From NCBI GenBank assembly GCA_944363615.1, contig CALVUQ010000003.1, forward strand, positions 1 through 64,000: DNA of 64,000 nt. Direction: 5' to 3'. This stretch comes from an uncultured Clostridia bacterium. GTDB lineage: Bacteria > Bacillota > Clostridia > Christensenellales > Pumilibacteraceae. The position numbers were made by a program, and so were the translations under genes. Numbering within the stretch: the first letter of the stretch is position 1; every line of letters begins with the position of its first letter. This document shows, in pieces, positions 22,254-28,635 of the stretch. The notes beneath the pieces are model-generated. The model saw nothing but the letters and a program-made list of their open reading frames with translations. It made no database searches and had not been told where the DNA came from.

Positions 22254-22563
22254 ACAACGCCGAAAGCCGGTAATTTCCGACAGCTTTTATAGTTTACCAA
22301 AACATCGGAAAAAAAGCAAGAGATTTTACAGGGTTTCGGTGAAAAAATTTCAAAGCTTTTATGAAAGAATCCGATTTATAAAAAAATCAGTCGTTTTGAC
22401 AACGATTCTTAAGAGTTTCGGAATCAGAACTTTGTCTTATTCTTTTAACCGGAAAAATATTTTGGCGCTCTGCGGCTTTTTTATGAGGTTTTACGACTTT
22501 ATTCGCATATTTGCCGTGCGTAAATTCTTTCCCTTTGCATACAATATTTACGAAGAGGAAATT
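22254..22563. other. Region between the tRNA cluster and the ytxC-like gene
   Basis: About 310 bp. It must hold the minus-strand tRNA promoter; a TATAAA-type -10 is visible near 22290 on the minus strand, but no good -35. On the plus strand the frame of the following gene is open back to 22339, but those 75 codons look unlike the family and are preceded by no ribosome site, so I treat them as non-coding. Confidence 0.4.
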
Positions 22564-23322
22564 ATGTTCGAAATCAGACTGACCGTAAAAGCCGAGAATG
22601 CAGGTTGGATACAAGACAAGGAAGAATATATTAAAAGCTTCGTGGAAAGAGCGGGGGGATTCTTTGATTGCTGTAATGCGTTCGGAAGCCGCGAAATGAC
22701 ACTTTCGTGCGATAACCGTAAAAAGGAGAGCGTTGTAAAAGAAATAAAAAGCCTTTTATCGGACGTCTATTGCAACGAGCTTAAACGAAGCTATTTTCTG
22801 TCGAGATTAAGGCTTCCCATGCTTAAGGGGCTAAGCAAGGAGATTTTAATAAGGACTCTTATCGCGTTCGACCGCGAACGAGACGCAGAACTGGTTGAAA
22901 GCCGAATCAGGCTGGAAAAAGTTTTTTCGGTGGACGGGTTCTATTATTTCAGACTGCGCGAGCTTAACGACAGATGGCGGGAGATTGCGGAACTGACCGA
23001 GGCGAACGTCATGCTGCTTTACGACGAGAGCGCGCTTAATCTTTTATTGAAATTTTTATTAAGCGCTGTGGCGCCGAAATACGATACCGTAAGAATTCTG
23101 CAAAAAGCGGGCGGATATTTAATCAAAGCAAGCGACGTGCCTGTTGTGCCCGACAAGCTTCTTACCGCGGGAGAACTCCTTTTGTCGCTTGTGGACATTG
23201 CGCCCATGGAAATAGTGCTGGAAAACAAGATAACCGATTGTTCGCTTCTGATGAAGTTAAGCGACATTTTCGACGTAAAAGACGCAAATAATACATTATC
23301 TTTTTGTGAAAATCTGCAGTAA
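22564..23322 (+). CDS. YtxC-like putative sporulation protein
   Basis: 252-residue soluble protein. The middle resembles the YtxC family of spore-forming Firmicutes, notably VDGFYYFRLRELNDRWREI (about 122-140), where the family has a similar GF-x-FRL segment followed by a helical domain. The role of YtxC is not established. I chose ATG 22564 behind GAGGAA; a longer open frame begins at 22339. It lies upstream of yajC in the same direction but is separated by a yajC promoter. Similarity was judged by eye and is moderate. Confidence 0.55.
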   Translation: MFEIRLTVKAENAGWIQDKEEYIKSFVERAGGFFDCCNAFGSREMTLSCDNRKKESVVKEIKSLLSDVYCNELKRSYFLSRLRLPMLKGLSKEILIRTLIAFDRERDAELVESRIRLEKVFSVDGFYYFRLRELNDRWREIAELTEANVMLLYDESALNLLLKFLLSAVAPKYDTVRILQKAGGYLIKASDVPVVPDKLLTAGELLLSLVDIAPMEIVLENKITDCSLLMKLSDIFDVKDANNTLSFCENLQ

Positions 23323-23901: not shown

Positions 23902-24294
23902 ATGCATTCCAACGAAACAGCCGTAGAGAAAAAACATTACGTTCTTGAGATGGTGAAAGCGCTTATATTGTCTATTATCGTTACGCTTGTGATGATACTG
24001 CTTGCGGCTTTCGCAATCAAGATTTTCAATATTCCCACGGACAGCATTATCATCATCAATCAGGTGATTAAAGGCGTGTCGATTTTTGTTTCGGCAATGA
24101 TATGTTTCAAGTTGCCTTCGTGCGGTTTTATAAGAGGAATTATTCTCGGAATTCTCTATATACTCCTGTCGTTTGTGGTGTTTTCGCTGTTCAACAACGA
24201 ATTCGCTTTCGGCATAAATCTTCTCAACGACGTGGCTCTTGGCGCGGTTACCGGGCTTATAAGCGGAATCATCGCCGTCAATTTAAGAAAATAA
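23902..24294 (+). CDS. TIGR04086-family membrane protein
   Basis: 130-residue protein with four hydrophobic segments (about 16-38, 46-68, 74-95 and 105-128) and short loops. Size, topology and position between yajC and the SCIFF gene match the TIGR04086 family of Clostridia, whose function is unknown. It starts 8 nt after a strong GAGGAGG. It has its own promoter-like site with a palindrome just upstream, and the SCIFF gene downstream has another promoter, so the two need not be co-expressed. Confidence 0.8.
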   Translation: MHSNETAVEKKHYVLEMVKALILSIIVTLVMILLAAFAIKIFNIPTDSIIIINQVIKGVSIFVSAMICFKLPSCGFIRGIILGILYILLSFVVFSLFNNEFAFGINLLNDVALGAVTGLISGIIAVNLRK

Positions 24295-24325: not shown

Positions 24326-24354
24326 TTGCAAAAACTTATGCCTTGTAGTATAAT
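24326..24354 (+). promoter_or_regulatory. Sigma-A promoter of the SCIFF operon
   Basis: TTGCAA (24326-24331), 17 bp, and a perfect TATAAT (24349-24354). The start of transcription near 24361 leaves a leader of about 25 nt with GGAGG before scfA. Confidence 0.8.
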
Positions 24355-24385
24355 GTTTACAAAAATTGCGGAGGCTTAGCCAATT

Positions 24386-24553
24386 ATGAAACACATTAAA
24401 GTTGTTGCCAAATCCACCATTTGCAGAGACAAACACACCGGTTGCGGCGAGTGTCAGTCCAGTTGCCAGTCTGCTTGCAAAACAAGCTGCACCGTGGGCA
24501 ATCAGTCTTGCGAACAGAAAATCAACCGTATCGAAAAAGAAGACAACAGATAA
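24386..24553 (+). CDS. scfA: SCIFF (six cysteines in forty-five) ranthipeptide precursor
   Basis: Ribosomal peptide precursor of 55 codons. It opens with MKHIKVVAKST, then has a dense cysteine run at positions 20, 23, 27, 31, 35 and 42, with the C-xxx-C-K-T-S-C-T-V-G-N-Q signature of SCIFF peptides. The neighbouring radical SAM enzyme installs thioether bridges on such peptides; the final product and its role are unsettled. Two features are unusual: a seventh cysteine at position 13, and about 13 extra residues, charged and Cys-free, after the last cysteine. The ATG at 24386 follows GCGGAGG by 10 nt. The maturase start lies 4 nt beyond the stop. Confidence 0.95.
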   Translation: MKHIKVVAKSTICRDKHTGCGECQSSCQSACKTSCTVGNQSCEQKINRIEKEDNR

Positions 24554-24557
24554 GTAA

Positions 24558-25892
24558 ATGGTTCACGCGTTTGACTGTCTCGGCCACAGCTTTTTGTTGG
24601 ACGTTGAAAGCGGTTCGGTATTCATTGTAGATTCACTGACAAAGGCTTTAATAGAAAACCACGATTCTCCCGTTGATTATTCAAAGGGGGAATTTTCCCG
24701 TTATACCGCAACCGAAATCGCGGAAGCTGGGGAAGAAATAGACGCTCTTATAAAGGAGGGCGTTCTCTTTTCGCCTGAGCCTCCGCACAAAAAACCCGAA
24801 TATGCGGGAATTATAAAAGCAATGTGTCTTAATATTTCGCACATGTGCAATTTAAGATGCGAGTACTGTTTTGCGGACGGCGGTTCTTACAGCGGCGCGA
24901 TGACGAACATGAGTTTCGAAGTCGCAAAAAACGCCGTCGATTTTCTCATTGCCAAAAGCGGCGGAAGGCGCAATCTCGAAATAGATTTTTTCGGGGGAGA
25001 GCCTCTTCTGAATTTCGACGTCGTAAAGCGTACCGTGGCGTATGCTCGCGGACTGGAAAAGGAAAAGAACAAAAATTTCCGTTTTACCATTACCACTAAC
25101 GCAATGTTGCTTGACGATGACGCAATTGACTTTTTCAACAAAGAAATGTATAACGTCGTCGTCAGTATAGACGGCAGAAAATCTGTACATAATTCGGTAA
25201 GGAAAACCGTTGCGGGGGAAGGGTCTTTCGACGCGGCGATGAAAAACGCGCTTAACTTCAAGGCAAAGCGCAAGGGACAGTATTACGTGCGCGGGACCTA
25301 TACTGCGCTTAACAAGGATTTTTCCAAAGACGTATTGTACCTGAACGACTGCGGTTTCGACCAGATTTCCATCGAGCCCGTGGTTCTTCCCGAAAATCAC
25401 AGGCTTGCAATACACAAAAGCGACGTTCCCGAACTTATCGAAGAATACGATAAACTGGTCAACGAGTATTTCCGAAGAAGAAAGACGGATAAGTGGTTTA
25501 ATTTCTTTCACTTCATGATAGATATTTATCACGGTCCGTGCGAAACCAAAAGGCTTGTCGGCTGCGGCGCGGGTAACGAGTATGTTGCCGTTGCGCCAAA
25601 CGGCGATATTTTCCCTTGTCACCAATTCGACGGGGACGCCGATTATAAAATAGGAAACGTTCTCGACGGCACATTCGACAATCGTATTCCCGAAAAATTC
25701 GCCCTAAACAACCTTCTCGAGAAAAAAGATTGCCGCGATTGCTGGGCAAAATATTACTGCAGCGGCGGATGCGCGGCAAACGCCATTCATTATTGCGGCG
25801 ACATCAACAAACCTTACAAGATTACGTGCGAGCTTATGCGCAAAAGAATAGAGTGCGCTATTGCCGTAAATTCCCTTGAAAAATCAAAATAA
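24558..25892 (+). CDS. scfB: SCIFF radical SAM maturase (thioether bridge-forming)
   Basis: Radical SAM/SPASM enzyme of 444 residues that modifies the scfA peptide. An N-terminal peptide-recognition region (1 to about 85, beginning MVHAFDCLGHSFLLD) precedes the radical SAM core with C97-xxx-C101-xx-C104 and the FFGGEPLL segment. The C-terminal SPASM domain has cysteines for two auxiliary [4Fe-4S] clusters, seen in GCGAGNEY, FPCHQFD, CRDCW and CSGGCAANA. It starts 4 nt after scfA without a clear ribosome site, so translation is probably coupled to the peptide gene. secD follows with its own promoter. Confidence 0.95.
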   Translation: MVHAFDCLGHSFLLDVESGSVFIVDSLTKALIENHDSPVDYSKGEFSRYTATEIAEAGEEIDALIKEGVLFSPEPPHKKPEYAGIIKAMCLNISHMCNLRCEYCFADGGSYSGAMTNMSFEVAKNAVDFLIAKSGGRRNLEIDFFGGEPLLNFDVVKRTVAYARGLEKEKNKNFRFTITTNAMLLDDDAIDFFNKEMYNVVVSIDGRKSVHNSVRKTVAGEGSFDAAMKNALNFKAKRKGQYYVRGTYTALNKDFSKDVLYLNDCGFDQISIEPVVLPENHRLAIHKSDVPELIEEYDKLVNEYFRRRKTDKWFNFFHFMIDIYHGPCETKRLVGCGAGNEYVAVAPNGDIFPCHQFDGDADYKIGNVLDGTFDNRIPEKFALNNLLEKKDCRDCWAKYYCSGGCAANAIHYCGDINKPYKITCELMRKRIECAIAVNSLEKSK

Positions 25893-25926: not shown

Positions 25927-25956
25927 TTGACTAATCGGGCGGAAATATTATATAAT
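25927..25956 (+). promoter_or_regulatory. Sigma-A promoter of secDF
   Basis: TTGACT (25927-25932), 18 bp, perfect TATAAT (25951-25956). secD begins at 25985 behind TTGGAGG. Confidence 0.75.
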
Positions 25957-25984: not shown

Positions 25985-27361
25985 ATGAAGAAAAAATCGT
26001 CAATAATCAAGCTTGCGTTGATTGGCGTTGTTCTGGTAATAGGGATTGTGCTCTCGGTATGCTCTTTTAAGCTGCCGTTTTCATATTATAATTACAATTC
26101 TTTTGCAAGTTCGATTAAGCTTGGTCTGGATCTTAAGGGCGGTATTTACGCCGTTTACGATACGGAAAGCGCGGGTGTGGACAATTTCGACGCAAAACTT
26201 GCCGGCACGCAGAAAAGGCTTCAGGATCTTTTGGTCTCCAAAGGATATACGGAGGCACTTGTCACCATTGAAGACAAAACCAGATTAAGGGTGGAAGTGC
26301 CCGACGTGGACAACCCTTCCGCAGTGTTTGAGCTTATCGGCCAACCTGCCGAGTTGGAGTTCGTGCTTGACGACACCGACGAAATCGTAATTACCGGCGA
26401 TCACGTAAAAAGCGCGGAGGGATATTACGATTCTACGCAGGGCGCTCCCGTCGTTTCGCTGGAGCTTACCGACGAAGGCGCAGAAAGATTCGGTGAAATA
26501 ACCGCCGCAAACGTCGATAAAACCATGTCCATTTATATCGTTACCGACGGAGTCAGGGACGAAACGCCCATTTCGACAGCAACCATTCAGGAAGCTATTA
26601 CGGGCGGTCGCGCACAGATAACCATGTCGGGACAGGAAACTCAGGACGCCGTTGACCTTGCCGCACAGATCATGAGCGGTACGTTCGACGTCAAGCTTTC
26701 GCTTAAAGAAAGTTCCACGATTTCCCCGACGCTGGGCGAGCAGGCTTTGTTCCTGGGTATAATCGCCGGTGCAGTGGGTCTTTTGCTTGTCGTGGCATTT
26801 CTGATCTGGAGATACAGGCTTTTCGGCGTTGTCGCAACAATAGCGCTTGCGGTTTATACGGTGCTTATGCTGTTCTTCCTGGCGGTTCTTCCTTGGGTAC
26901 AGCTTACGCTTCCCGGCATTGCGGGTATTTTGTTAAGCCTTGGTATGGCGGTCGACGGCAACATCGTTATTTACGAGCGCATCAAAGACGAGTACCGTGA
27001 CGGCAAATCCATTCTGGCTTCGTTGCACGCGGGATTCAAAAAGGCTACGGTTGCGATTTTCGACAGTAACATCACTACGATAATCGCCGCAATCATTCTG
27101 ATAATATTCGGCACGGGCAGCATTTCCGGCTTTGGTATAACTCTGCTTATCGGTATTATTCTTTCCATGTTTACTTCTTTGGTTGTTACTCGCGGACTAT
27201 GCAAATACTTTACCGCTATCAACAACACGAACGAAAAGCTTTACGGCTTAAAACGCGGCAAGGACTTTGTCCCCGATGAACTGGAGAACGTTGAAGAAGT
27301 CGAAGCTGAAGAAAAAGAAATCACCGCGCCTGCCGGCGAAACGGAAGGAGCACAAGCATGA
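25985..27361 (+). CDS. secD: Protein translocase subunit SecD
   Basis: RND-like membrane protein that uses the proton motive force to pull exported proteins across the membrane with SecF and YajC. A first membrane helix (about 9-27) is followed by GLDLKGGIYAVY, a periplasmic-type domain on the outer face (about 50-240), then five membrane helices (about 250-420) with the conserved AVDGNIVIYERIKDE segment. A short acidic tail ends the 458-residue protein. The stop codon overlaps the secF start by 4 nt. Confidence 0.96.
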   Translation: MKKKSSIIKLALIGVVLVIGIVLSVCSFKLPFSYYNYNSFASSIKLGLDLKGGIYAVYDTESAGVDNFDAKLAGTQKRLQDLLVSKGYTEALVTIEDKTRLRVEVPDVDNPSAVFELIGQPAELEFVLDDTDEIVITGDHVKSAEGYYDSTQGAPVVSLELTDEGAERFGEITAANVDKTMSIYIVTDGVRDETPISTATIQEAITGGRAQITMSGQETQDAVDLAAQIMSGTFDVKLSLKESSTISPTLGEQALFLGIIAGAVGLLLVVAFLIWRYRLFGVVATIALAVYTVLMLFFLAVLPWVQLTLPGIAGILLSLGMAVDGNIVIYERIKDEYRDGKSILASLHAGFKKATVAIFDSNITTIIAAIILIIFGTGSISGFGITLLIGIILSMFTSLVVTRGLCKYFTAINNTNEKLYGLKRGKDFVPDELENVEEVEAEEKEITAPAGETEGAQA

Positions 27362-28635
27362 AATTCAACAGATTGTTCGAACAGGATTTTAAAATAGTCG
27401 AAAACAAGAAGAAAGTTTTCGCTGCGCCCGTCATAGTAATCGTTATCGCAATAATAGCATGCATTGTCTATCATTTCGTTATGGGCAGCGCTTTCAACCT
27501 GGGTATGGATTTTACCGGCGGCTACAGCATCAGCGTTACTCTCGGCAACAAGCTTACTGACGAGACGTATGACACTTACCGTAATCTTGCCGTTGACATT
27601 GCCGAAGGACTTAAGGACGATGAAGGGAACGATTACGGCATTAAGGTTTCTTCCGTTCAGCGTCAGGGCGACGCCGATACCGCAGGATTGTTGCTTAAAT
27701 ACAAATCCGTAGGCACGGAAGAGGAAATGGAAACGATTAATGAAAAACTCAATGCTGCGCTTTCCGATTCCATGTTCTTTTTTCGTCCGACCGTTACTTT
27801 CAACGATGCAAAAACCGAGTTTACCGCGGTTTACGATAATTATCTGCTTGTAGGCGATTACGCTTACAGTTTTGAAACCAGGCTTAAAGAGGCAGGTTTA
27901 AACGTAAGTTCCGTTAACGTGTCGGAAGACAAAAAATCCGTTAAAGTTGCTCTTGCCGCGGCTGCGTCCGACGAAAACGTCGCCTCCGTCAACGAGATTA
28001 TGACTATTGCCGACAATTACGGCGGCATGGTCTCCGACGGCGGACAAACAAGCTCCACGGTCAGTTCGGAAATTCTGAAAAGCGCTTTGCTTGCGGTTTC
28101 CGTTGCACTTCTTCTTATGCTTGTTTATATCATCATAAGATTTGAGCTCTTGAGCGGTATTGCCGCCGTGCTTGCACTTTTGCATGATATTATTATAATG
28201 GTGTGCTTTATGGCCATTTTCCACATCGAGATAAATTCGACGTTCATCGCCGCGCTTATCACTATCTTAGGATACTCCATCAACAACACCATAATTATAT
28301 TCGACCGCGCGCGCGAGAACATTAAATTCTATGCCAACAAGCGCATTAACGGCAAACTCGTCAAACCCGCTTATATTGCAAACAAATCCGTTCAGGAAAC
28401 GATTTGGCGTTCCATCAACACAACGCTTACCACTCTTATCATGATCGCGATGGTTGCAATAATAGGCGTAACCGATATAAGAATTTTCGCTTTGCCTATT
28501 ATCTTCGGTTTGCTTGCCGGTACTTATTCGTCCGTGTTCCTGGCACCTACGATATGGGCACTGCTTGCGAAAAGTTTTCCCGGTACAATCAAAGCGCCGA
28601 AGGCAAAACGCGCGGTGGCAAAAGCCGACAAATAA
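27358..28635 (+). CDS. secF: Protein translocase subunit SecF
   Basis: Partner of SecD. After a membrane helix at about 20-42 comes FNLGMDFTGGYSISV, typical of SecF, then an external domain (to about 225) and five membrane helices with GYSINNTIIIFDRARENI. The 425-residue length is somewhat above the usual 290-320, because the external domain is enlarged (about residues 60-225), as in several Clostridia. It overlaps secD by 4 nt and ends shortly before a strong terminator. Confidence 0.95.
   Translation: MKFNRLFEQDFKIVENKKKVFAAPVIVIVIAIIACIVYHFVMGSAFNLGMDFTGGYSISVTLGNKLTDETYDTYRNLAVDIAEGLKDDEGNDYGIKVSSVQRQGDADTAGLLLKYKSVGTEEEMETINEKLNAALSDSMFFFRPTVTFNDAKTEFTAVYDNYLLVGDYAYSFETRLKEAGLNVSSVNVSEDKKSVKVALAAAASDENVASVNEIMTIADNYGGMVSDGGQTSSTVSSEILKSALLAVSVALLLMLVYIIIRFELLSGIAAVLALLHDIIIMVCFMAIFHIEINSTFIAALITILGYSINNTIIIFDRARENIKFYANKRINGKLVKPAYIANKSVQETIWRSINTTLTTLIMIAMVAIIGVTDIRIFALPIIFGLLAGTYSSVFLAPTIWALLAKSFPGTIKAPKAKRAVAKADK

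Follow-up and report, generated by a model that had tools for sequence, protein, structure and literature searches.

The scfA-scfB pair in the window (the whole stretch of DNA that was analysed, 64,000 nucleotides) encodes a SCIFF ranthipeptide precursor and its radical SAM/SPASM maturase, a known kind of system with variation that is shared by its lineage. With a probability of about 0.72, we regard it as an ordinary SCIFF system, in which ScfB would form a single thioether from the cysteine C31, the extra leader cysteine C13 would be an uncrosslinked thiol retained in the lineage, and the C-terminal tail would lie outside the modified core. ScfA thus adds no new kind of system, and the recurrence of a single extra cysteine across the SCIFF family is mildly intriguing. 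SCIFF peptides, which are small and rich in cysteine and come with a modifying enzyme, form a family that is widespread in gut bacteria and, to our knowledge, almost universal in Clostridia.

The scfAB locus and its family assignment

The features of the locus, all on the forward strand, are the following.

23902..24294, +, TIGR04086/DUF3792 membrane protein, a conserved neighbour by profile matches and by the neighbourhoods of relatives
24326..24354, +, sigma-70-type promoter-like site of scfAB, TTGCAA-17-TATAAT, 10 of 12 consensus letters
24370..24374, +, GGAGG ribosome-binding-like sequence, 11 nt 5' of the scfA start, read in the sequence
24386..24553, +, scfA, SCIFF precursor of 55 aa, above the cut-offs of TIGR03973 and PF13165
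24422..24424, +, codon of the leader cysteine C13
24443..24511, +, core from C20 to C42, C-x2-C-x3-C-x3-C-x3-C-x6-C
24512..24550, +, charged, Cys-free C-terminal tail EQKINRIEKEDNR, 13 residues after C42
24558..25892, +, scfB, radical SAM/SPASM SCIFF maturase of 444 aa, TIGR03974 and CteB 5wgg match
25985..28635, +, secD and secF, conserved neighbours by profile matches and by the neighbourhoods of relatives

The scfA product has the order MKHIKVVAKSTICRDKHTG-CGECQSSCQSACKTSCTVGNQSC-EQKINRIEKEDNR and carries seven cysteines, at positions 13, 20, 23, 27, 31, 35, and 42. The preliminary description of a 55-codon peptide with six cysteines from C20 to C42, an additional C13, and a Cys-free tail of about 13 residues can be read directly in the sequence. 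Both genes are intact and without a frameshift, and 4 nt separate scfA from scfB.

ScfA scores 66.8 bits against TIGR03973 (NCBIfam, cut-off 50) and 68.2 bits against PF13165 (Pfam SCIFF, cut-off 27), and ScfB scores 588.4 bits against TIGR03974 (NCBIfam, cut-off 425). ScfB matches PF04055 and PF13186, with C97, C101, and C104 forming the radical SAM CxxxCxxC motif, and also has the SPASM cysteines. The closest solved structure is CteB (PDB ID 5wgg, E value 1.3e-147, residues 1-439 aligned), and the full-length alignment takes in the N-terminal region of CteB, which is the predicted RRE region. These matches bear out the earlier assignment as a SCIFF ranthipeptide precursor with an ScfB maturase. 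The core of ScfA has the six-cysteine spacing with the CQSACKTSC motif, and scfA adjoins a maturase gene of the ScfB type (TIGR03974). Taken literally, the family name describes about 45 residues with exactly six cysteines, which does not fit the 55 residues and seven cysteines of ScfA; this wording is not defining, as the curated models make no such demand and 108 of 266 distinct relatives have a seventh cysteine, in the leader. The genome yields a single SCIFF match and no second copy.

We also considered ScfB as a maturase of the PapB (freyrasin) type and rejected this, with the NF047865 model scoring 275.9 bits, under its cut-off of 340. The phmmer search of solved structures with ScfA as the query returned an epoxyqueuosine reductase alone (E value 0.34), which we attribute to chance Cys-rich similarity.

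Compared with known systems, ScfB has the same maturase architecture as CteB of the CteA/CteB pair from Clostridium thermocellum (thermocellin; PDB IDs 5wgg and 5why). By analogy with CteA, the ScfA product would be a ranthipeptide with a thioether from a cysteine to a non-alpha carbon. CteA has six cysteines and a short end, unlike ScfA with its C13 and 13-residue tail. In the consulted parts of two reviews, CteA is described as a SCIFF whose leader is about 20 residues long and whose thioether starts at the fourth cysteine (PMC8326336, PMC8172795). Tte1186a, the SCIFF of the Tte1186a/Tte1186 pair from Caldanaerobacter subterraneus, is described with a single Cys32-Thr37 thioether in vitro, and the part of the review consulted mentions no leader cysteine for it, as opposed to C13 in ScfA (PMC8326336). 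Freyrasin (PapA/PapB), being a ranthipeptide from a related SPASM enzyme, is described in the same parts of the reviews with six Cys-Asp S-Cbeta thioethers (PMC8326336, PMC8172795).

The genes upstream of scfAB are a YajC-like gene (39.9 bits, just below the cut-off of 44.2) and the TIGR04086 gene, and the profile search downstream of scfB gives secD, secF, and recJ. The order YajC-TIGR04086-ScfB-SecD-SecF on one strand is found on 23 of 80 named contigs around ScfB homologues, a count made with 2 kb flanks in which many contigs end early and 15 of the 80 show ScfB alone. In family relatives, scfB also lies directly 3' of scfA. Just 5' of yajC, a 327-aa frame (22339-23322) shows a weak likeness to the sporulation protein YtxC, with 22.8 bits against the Pfam model (cut-off 33.1) and 15.7 bits against the NCBIfam model (cut-off 206.95).

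The gene pair was also described as having its own strong promoter. The promoter-like site alone is weak evidence, because the 4 kb scanned around scfAB contain 10 such sites, compared with 6.4 (SD 2.7) in shuffled sequences. Among relatives in the family, however, 48 of 60 upstream regions carry an exact TATAAT as their best -10 element (counted by eye), and a real scfAB promoter is therefore likely; its strength is a matter of inference. A second, near-consensus site (TTGACT-18-TATAAT, 11 of 12 letters) lies between scfB and secD at 25927-25956, so secDF probably has its own transcription start.

Distribution of the leader cysteine

The scfA gene was readable at 335 of 340 loci. Among the 267 distinct peptides encoded there, 266 keep the canonical spacing and one, L233, is a truncated reading; the extraction pattern itself demanded most of the spacing. 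Five loci without a match to this pattern were dropped (L063, L064, L096, L106, and L251). Because the class sample came from the matches with the highest scores, it is biased to canonical forms. To offset this, a second draw, outside the 266 peptides, covered 34 genomes from other orders whose matches scored lower, with each family represented once. The 262-row ScfB tree leaves out rows with ScfB shorter than 380 aa, and the 149-row IQ-TREE those with ScfB outside 400-520 aa. Among open-licence PMC papers, we found no title on SCIFF leader cysteines or tails, and we do not claim that the variation is unpublished.

In the source family, the Pumilibacteraceae, SCIFF is found in 63 of 74 genomes, with 62 usable loci. 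A leader cysteine is present in 52 of these 62 loci and absent in 10. It is at position 13 in all 23 loci of the genera g1, g3, g4, and g8, together with T11 and I12, and leader positions 9, 10, 14, 15, and 16 vary among the same 23 loci. Position 13 is also used in one of two g12 loci, position 14 in g9 and one of two g10 loci, and position 16 in g2, g5, and g7. The relatives of the same genus (L002 and L031), of mostly g3 (L018-L026), and in several cases of g8 (L043-L055) resemble ScfA in having a leader cysteine, a long tail, and a CTVGNQ core. Family relatives differ from ScfA in the position of the leader cysteine (13, 14, or 16) and in the varied letters of the tail; the isolate Anaerocaecibacter muris (L052) is an example of the C16 variant.

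The comparison with the sister genome shows 17 synonymous and no non-synonymous changes over scfA codons 1-42, including the same leader. A frameshift or mis-assembly behind C13 or the tail is rejected, with the sister genome having the same leader and core and a similar tail. The preliminary description took C13 and the tail to make the peptide unusual and proposed an alignment to other Clostridia, naming a frameshift here together with six-cysteine, tail-less close relatives as the outcome that would speak against it. In our survey, C13 is present at every locus of four genera and the long tail is mostly confined to the own order. The close relatives have both features, as lineage traits, and elsewhere in the order long tails and lone leader cysteines appear repeatedly; ScfA is thus ordinary for its lineage.

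Across the 266 distinct peptides, 108 have a single leader cysteine, 158 have none, and none has two. Among the 108, the cysteine is at position 10 (3 peptides), 11 (35), 13 (41), 14 (8), 15 (4), 16 (16), or 18 (1), and it is at position 17 in L342 of the second draw, making eight positions overall. An apparent pattern of never using position 12 or 17 was discarded, given this C17 and a cysteine in L361 that falls at 12 by plain count and at 13 if aligned. By family code, the own order has the leader cysteine in 20 of its 31 families, and other orders have it in 2 of 43. In the second, weaker-scoring draw, 9 of the 34 genomes have it (counted by eye, leaving aside the tandem precursor L368), and its distribution thus extends across the class. 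Its presence changes at least 23 times on the 262-row ScfB tree and 22 times on the 149-row IQ-TREE.

Pairs of scfAB with C13, a short tail, and a CG[IV]ANQ core are found in at least 10 family codes, including genus g12 of the own family (members L004, L133, L256-L258, L261, L262, L265, L266, L269-L271, L321, and L324). Judged on the 149-row ScfB tree, this spread of the group over families looks like horizontal transfer or misbinned contigs. Three precursors are tandem, with leader-core-leader-core in one frame and twelve core cysteines (L368 in genome G440 of family f37, L380 in G592 of f61, and L381 in G745 of f42). Two of the three bear one leader cysteine per unit, and none has more per unit.

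The crosslink and possible roles of C13

The published SCIFF chemistry, as far as the consulted parts of the two reviews describe it, is one thioether per peptide, from Cys32, the fourth cysteine of CteA and Tte1186a, to Thr37 in vitro or to Thr34 on co-expression, the latter being an S-Cgamma bond (PMC8326336, PMC8172795). The same parts describe the leader as binding the RRE of CteB as a strand, note that, in a peptide of residues 1-21, Cys21 could come within reach of the open iron in a SPASM cluster, and leave the bridged threonine and the role of the other SCIFF cysteines undecided (PMC8326336, PMC8172795). By our own spacing-based correspondence, ScfA C31, T33, T36, and C20 would equal CteA Cys32, Thr34, Thr37, and Cys21.

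The residues C31, K32, T33, and S34 are identical in all 266 distinct peptides. The invariance of T33 (24482-24484), as opposed to T36 (24491-24493), which is replaced by Gly in 50 of the 266, favours the Thr34-type bond as the conserved crosslink and bears on the published disagreement over the acceptor. The survey thereby offers two handles, the invariant Thr34 equivalent set against the Gly-replaced Thr37 equivalent, and a recurrent seven-cysteine subclass.

We propose that the first part of the leader binds the N-terminal RRE domain of ScfB, as known for CteA/CteB, and that the core is threaded to the ScfB active site. There, ScfB would form a single S-Cgamma thioether, with C31, the fourth cysteine of the core, as donor and a threonine of the core, most likely T33, as acceptor; this bond is suggested by the published CteA and Tte1186a chemistry and by the conservation in this survey. 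C13 would lie between the RRE-binding strand and the core, most likely uncrosslinked, as a single thiol of a repeatedly gained kind that is retained in the lineage and either tolerated or weakly useful. It may, for instance, serve transiently as a ligand near the open iron-sulfur cluster of the SPASM domain, for which its place is plausible.

The preliminary description offered C13 as either an additional crosslink donor or a free thiol. In the published bond, the fourth cysteine of the core is the donor and a threonine of the core the acceptor; C13 is therefore most likely not a thioether donor, and a bond from C13 to T18 (i+5) or D15 (i+2) appears very unlikely to us. ScfB-type enzymes are described as making Cys-x-Thr or Cys-x4-Thr thioethers in the part of the review consulted (PMC8326336), and among 19-residue leaders with C13, T18 is present in 21 of 24, at i+5, the spacing of the Cys32-Thr37 proposal. 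T18 is, however, also present in 13 of 37 leaders without any cysteine, and a threonine at i+2 or i+5, the spacings proposed for CteA, follows the leader cysteine in just 37 of the 108 peptides and in 1 of 35 of the C11 group. The shifting positions of the cysteine and the lack of any ScfB cysteine column that covaries with it likewise speak against a donor, and the published SCIFF peptides have one thioether despite six cysteines (PMC8326336, in the part consulted). The free thiol is the more plausible half of the earlier proposal.

A rather improbable alternative in our estimate is that the leader cysteine is a selected single thiol, a transient ligand of the open iron of the SPASM auxiliary cluster that helps to position the core, where a second leader cysteine would compete and only one would be kept. 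Two leader cysteines are never found in the 266 peptides or the 34 further genomes, nor within one unit of the tandem precursors, and the positions are confined to 10-18 among the 266. The invariance of C13 in the 23 loci described above, while neighbouring positions vary, and the ability of CteA Cys21 to bind the open cluster iron in a crystal, according to the review part consulted, point the same way. The use of eight different positions and the 158 of 266 peptides that manage without a leader cysteine argue against such selection. Covariation of the leader cysteine with eight partial ScfB cysteine columns, including ScfB C7, gave no signal, with few informative pairs.

The retention and the lack of doubles were compared with variable ScfB columns and with simulations. 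For each change, the leader has 4.1 cysteine-bearing rows and the variable ScfB columns have 2.1. The 110 cysteine-bearing rows of the leader are matched by 8 of 149 runs of nine successive variable columns; its number of changes is nevertheless equalled or exceeded in 19 of the 149 column blocks. Under independent sites, 12.3 doubles are expected, and zero doubles occur in 0.8% of 5000 combinations (P = 0.008; site-specific rates, conditioned on site counts). A looser simulation with rates shared by all sites gives no doubles in 24% of runs, which weakens the case for selection, and when conditioned on 90-130 Cys-bearing tips, it does so in 0 of 178 runs. Each of the 13 overlapping blocks of ScfB columns in which 80 or more rows bear a cysteine contains 3-8 doubles. 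The simulations make a "never two" rule suggestive only. The evidence for a constraint of some kind on the leader cysteine is weak, for a thioether there is none, and a role for the thiol is possible. The retention of leader cysteines once gained and the lack of doubles give a hint that the thiol matters and that "merely tolerated" may be wrong.

In a broader form of this idea, the single leader thiol would be a recurrent selected accessory of SCIFF precursors, acquired many times within Clostridia and confined to a single site in each case. It would always fall outside the RRE-binding strand and would serve ScfB catalysis through auxiliary-cluster ligation or an extra bond; we hold this reading to be doubtful. 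If true, the "six cysteines" definition hides a seven-cysteine subclass of about two-fifths of the distinct peptides sampled.

The C-terminal tail

In the preferred reading of an ordinary SCIFF system, the tail would be a C-terminal extension of the kind usual in the order; it would lie outside the modified core, with its codons immediately 5' of the scfB start codon. The tail may also be a follower or a trimmed part, as the preliminary description suggested. Tails of at least 11 residues are found at 60 of the 62 loci of the own family. The preliminary description held that a standard SCIFF peptide stops shortly past its sixth cysteine, which fits the 143 of 266 distinct peptides with tails shorter than 11 residues but not the 123 with tails of 11-23 residues. 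By family code, the own order has the long tail in 19 of its 31 families, other orders have it in 1 of 43, and in the second draw it occurs in 2 of the 34 other-order genomes (counted by eye, again leaving L368 aside), so it is mostly a feature of the own order. Tail length switches between long and short at least 6 times on the 262-row ScfB tree and 6 times on the 149-row IQ-TREE, and coevolution with the leader cysteine could be assessed on 5 independent pairs, too few to reach significance.

A tentative alternative, which we consider possible and less probable than the preferred reading, is that the tail serves translation: it would extend the coding sequence up to the scfB start and thereby couple the translation of scfB to that of scfA. 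Among loci with a usable start estimate, the gap between the genes is at most 10 nt at 50 of 96 with a long tail, compared with 6 of 101 with a short tail (relatedness uncontrolled), and the 4 nt at the studied locus agree with this. At a quarter of the long-tail loci, however, the gap exceeds about 55 nt. The motif [KR][IV]N is present in 45 of 123 long tails, compared with 7.1 (maximum 16) in shuffled tails (relatedness uncontrolled), mostly 4-6 residues past the last cysteine, which suggests a constraint at the protein level instead. Given the recurrence of this motif and the long-tail genes abutting scfB, peptide-level and translational roles of the tail are both possible.

Cysteines make up 3 of 2477 tail residues, a depletion that we do not press because Met, Trp, Tyr, and Phe are scarce in the tails too. 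Of 124 peptides with a CTVGN core, 105 have long tails, and CTVAN, CGVAN, and CGIAN cores mostly have short ones.
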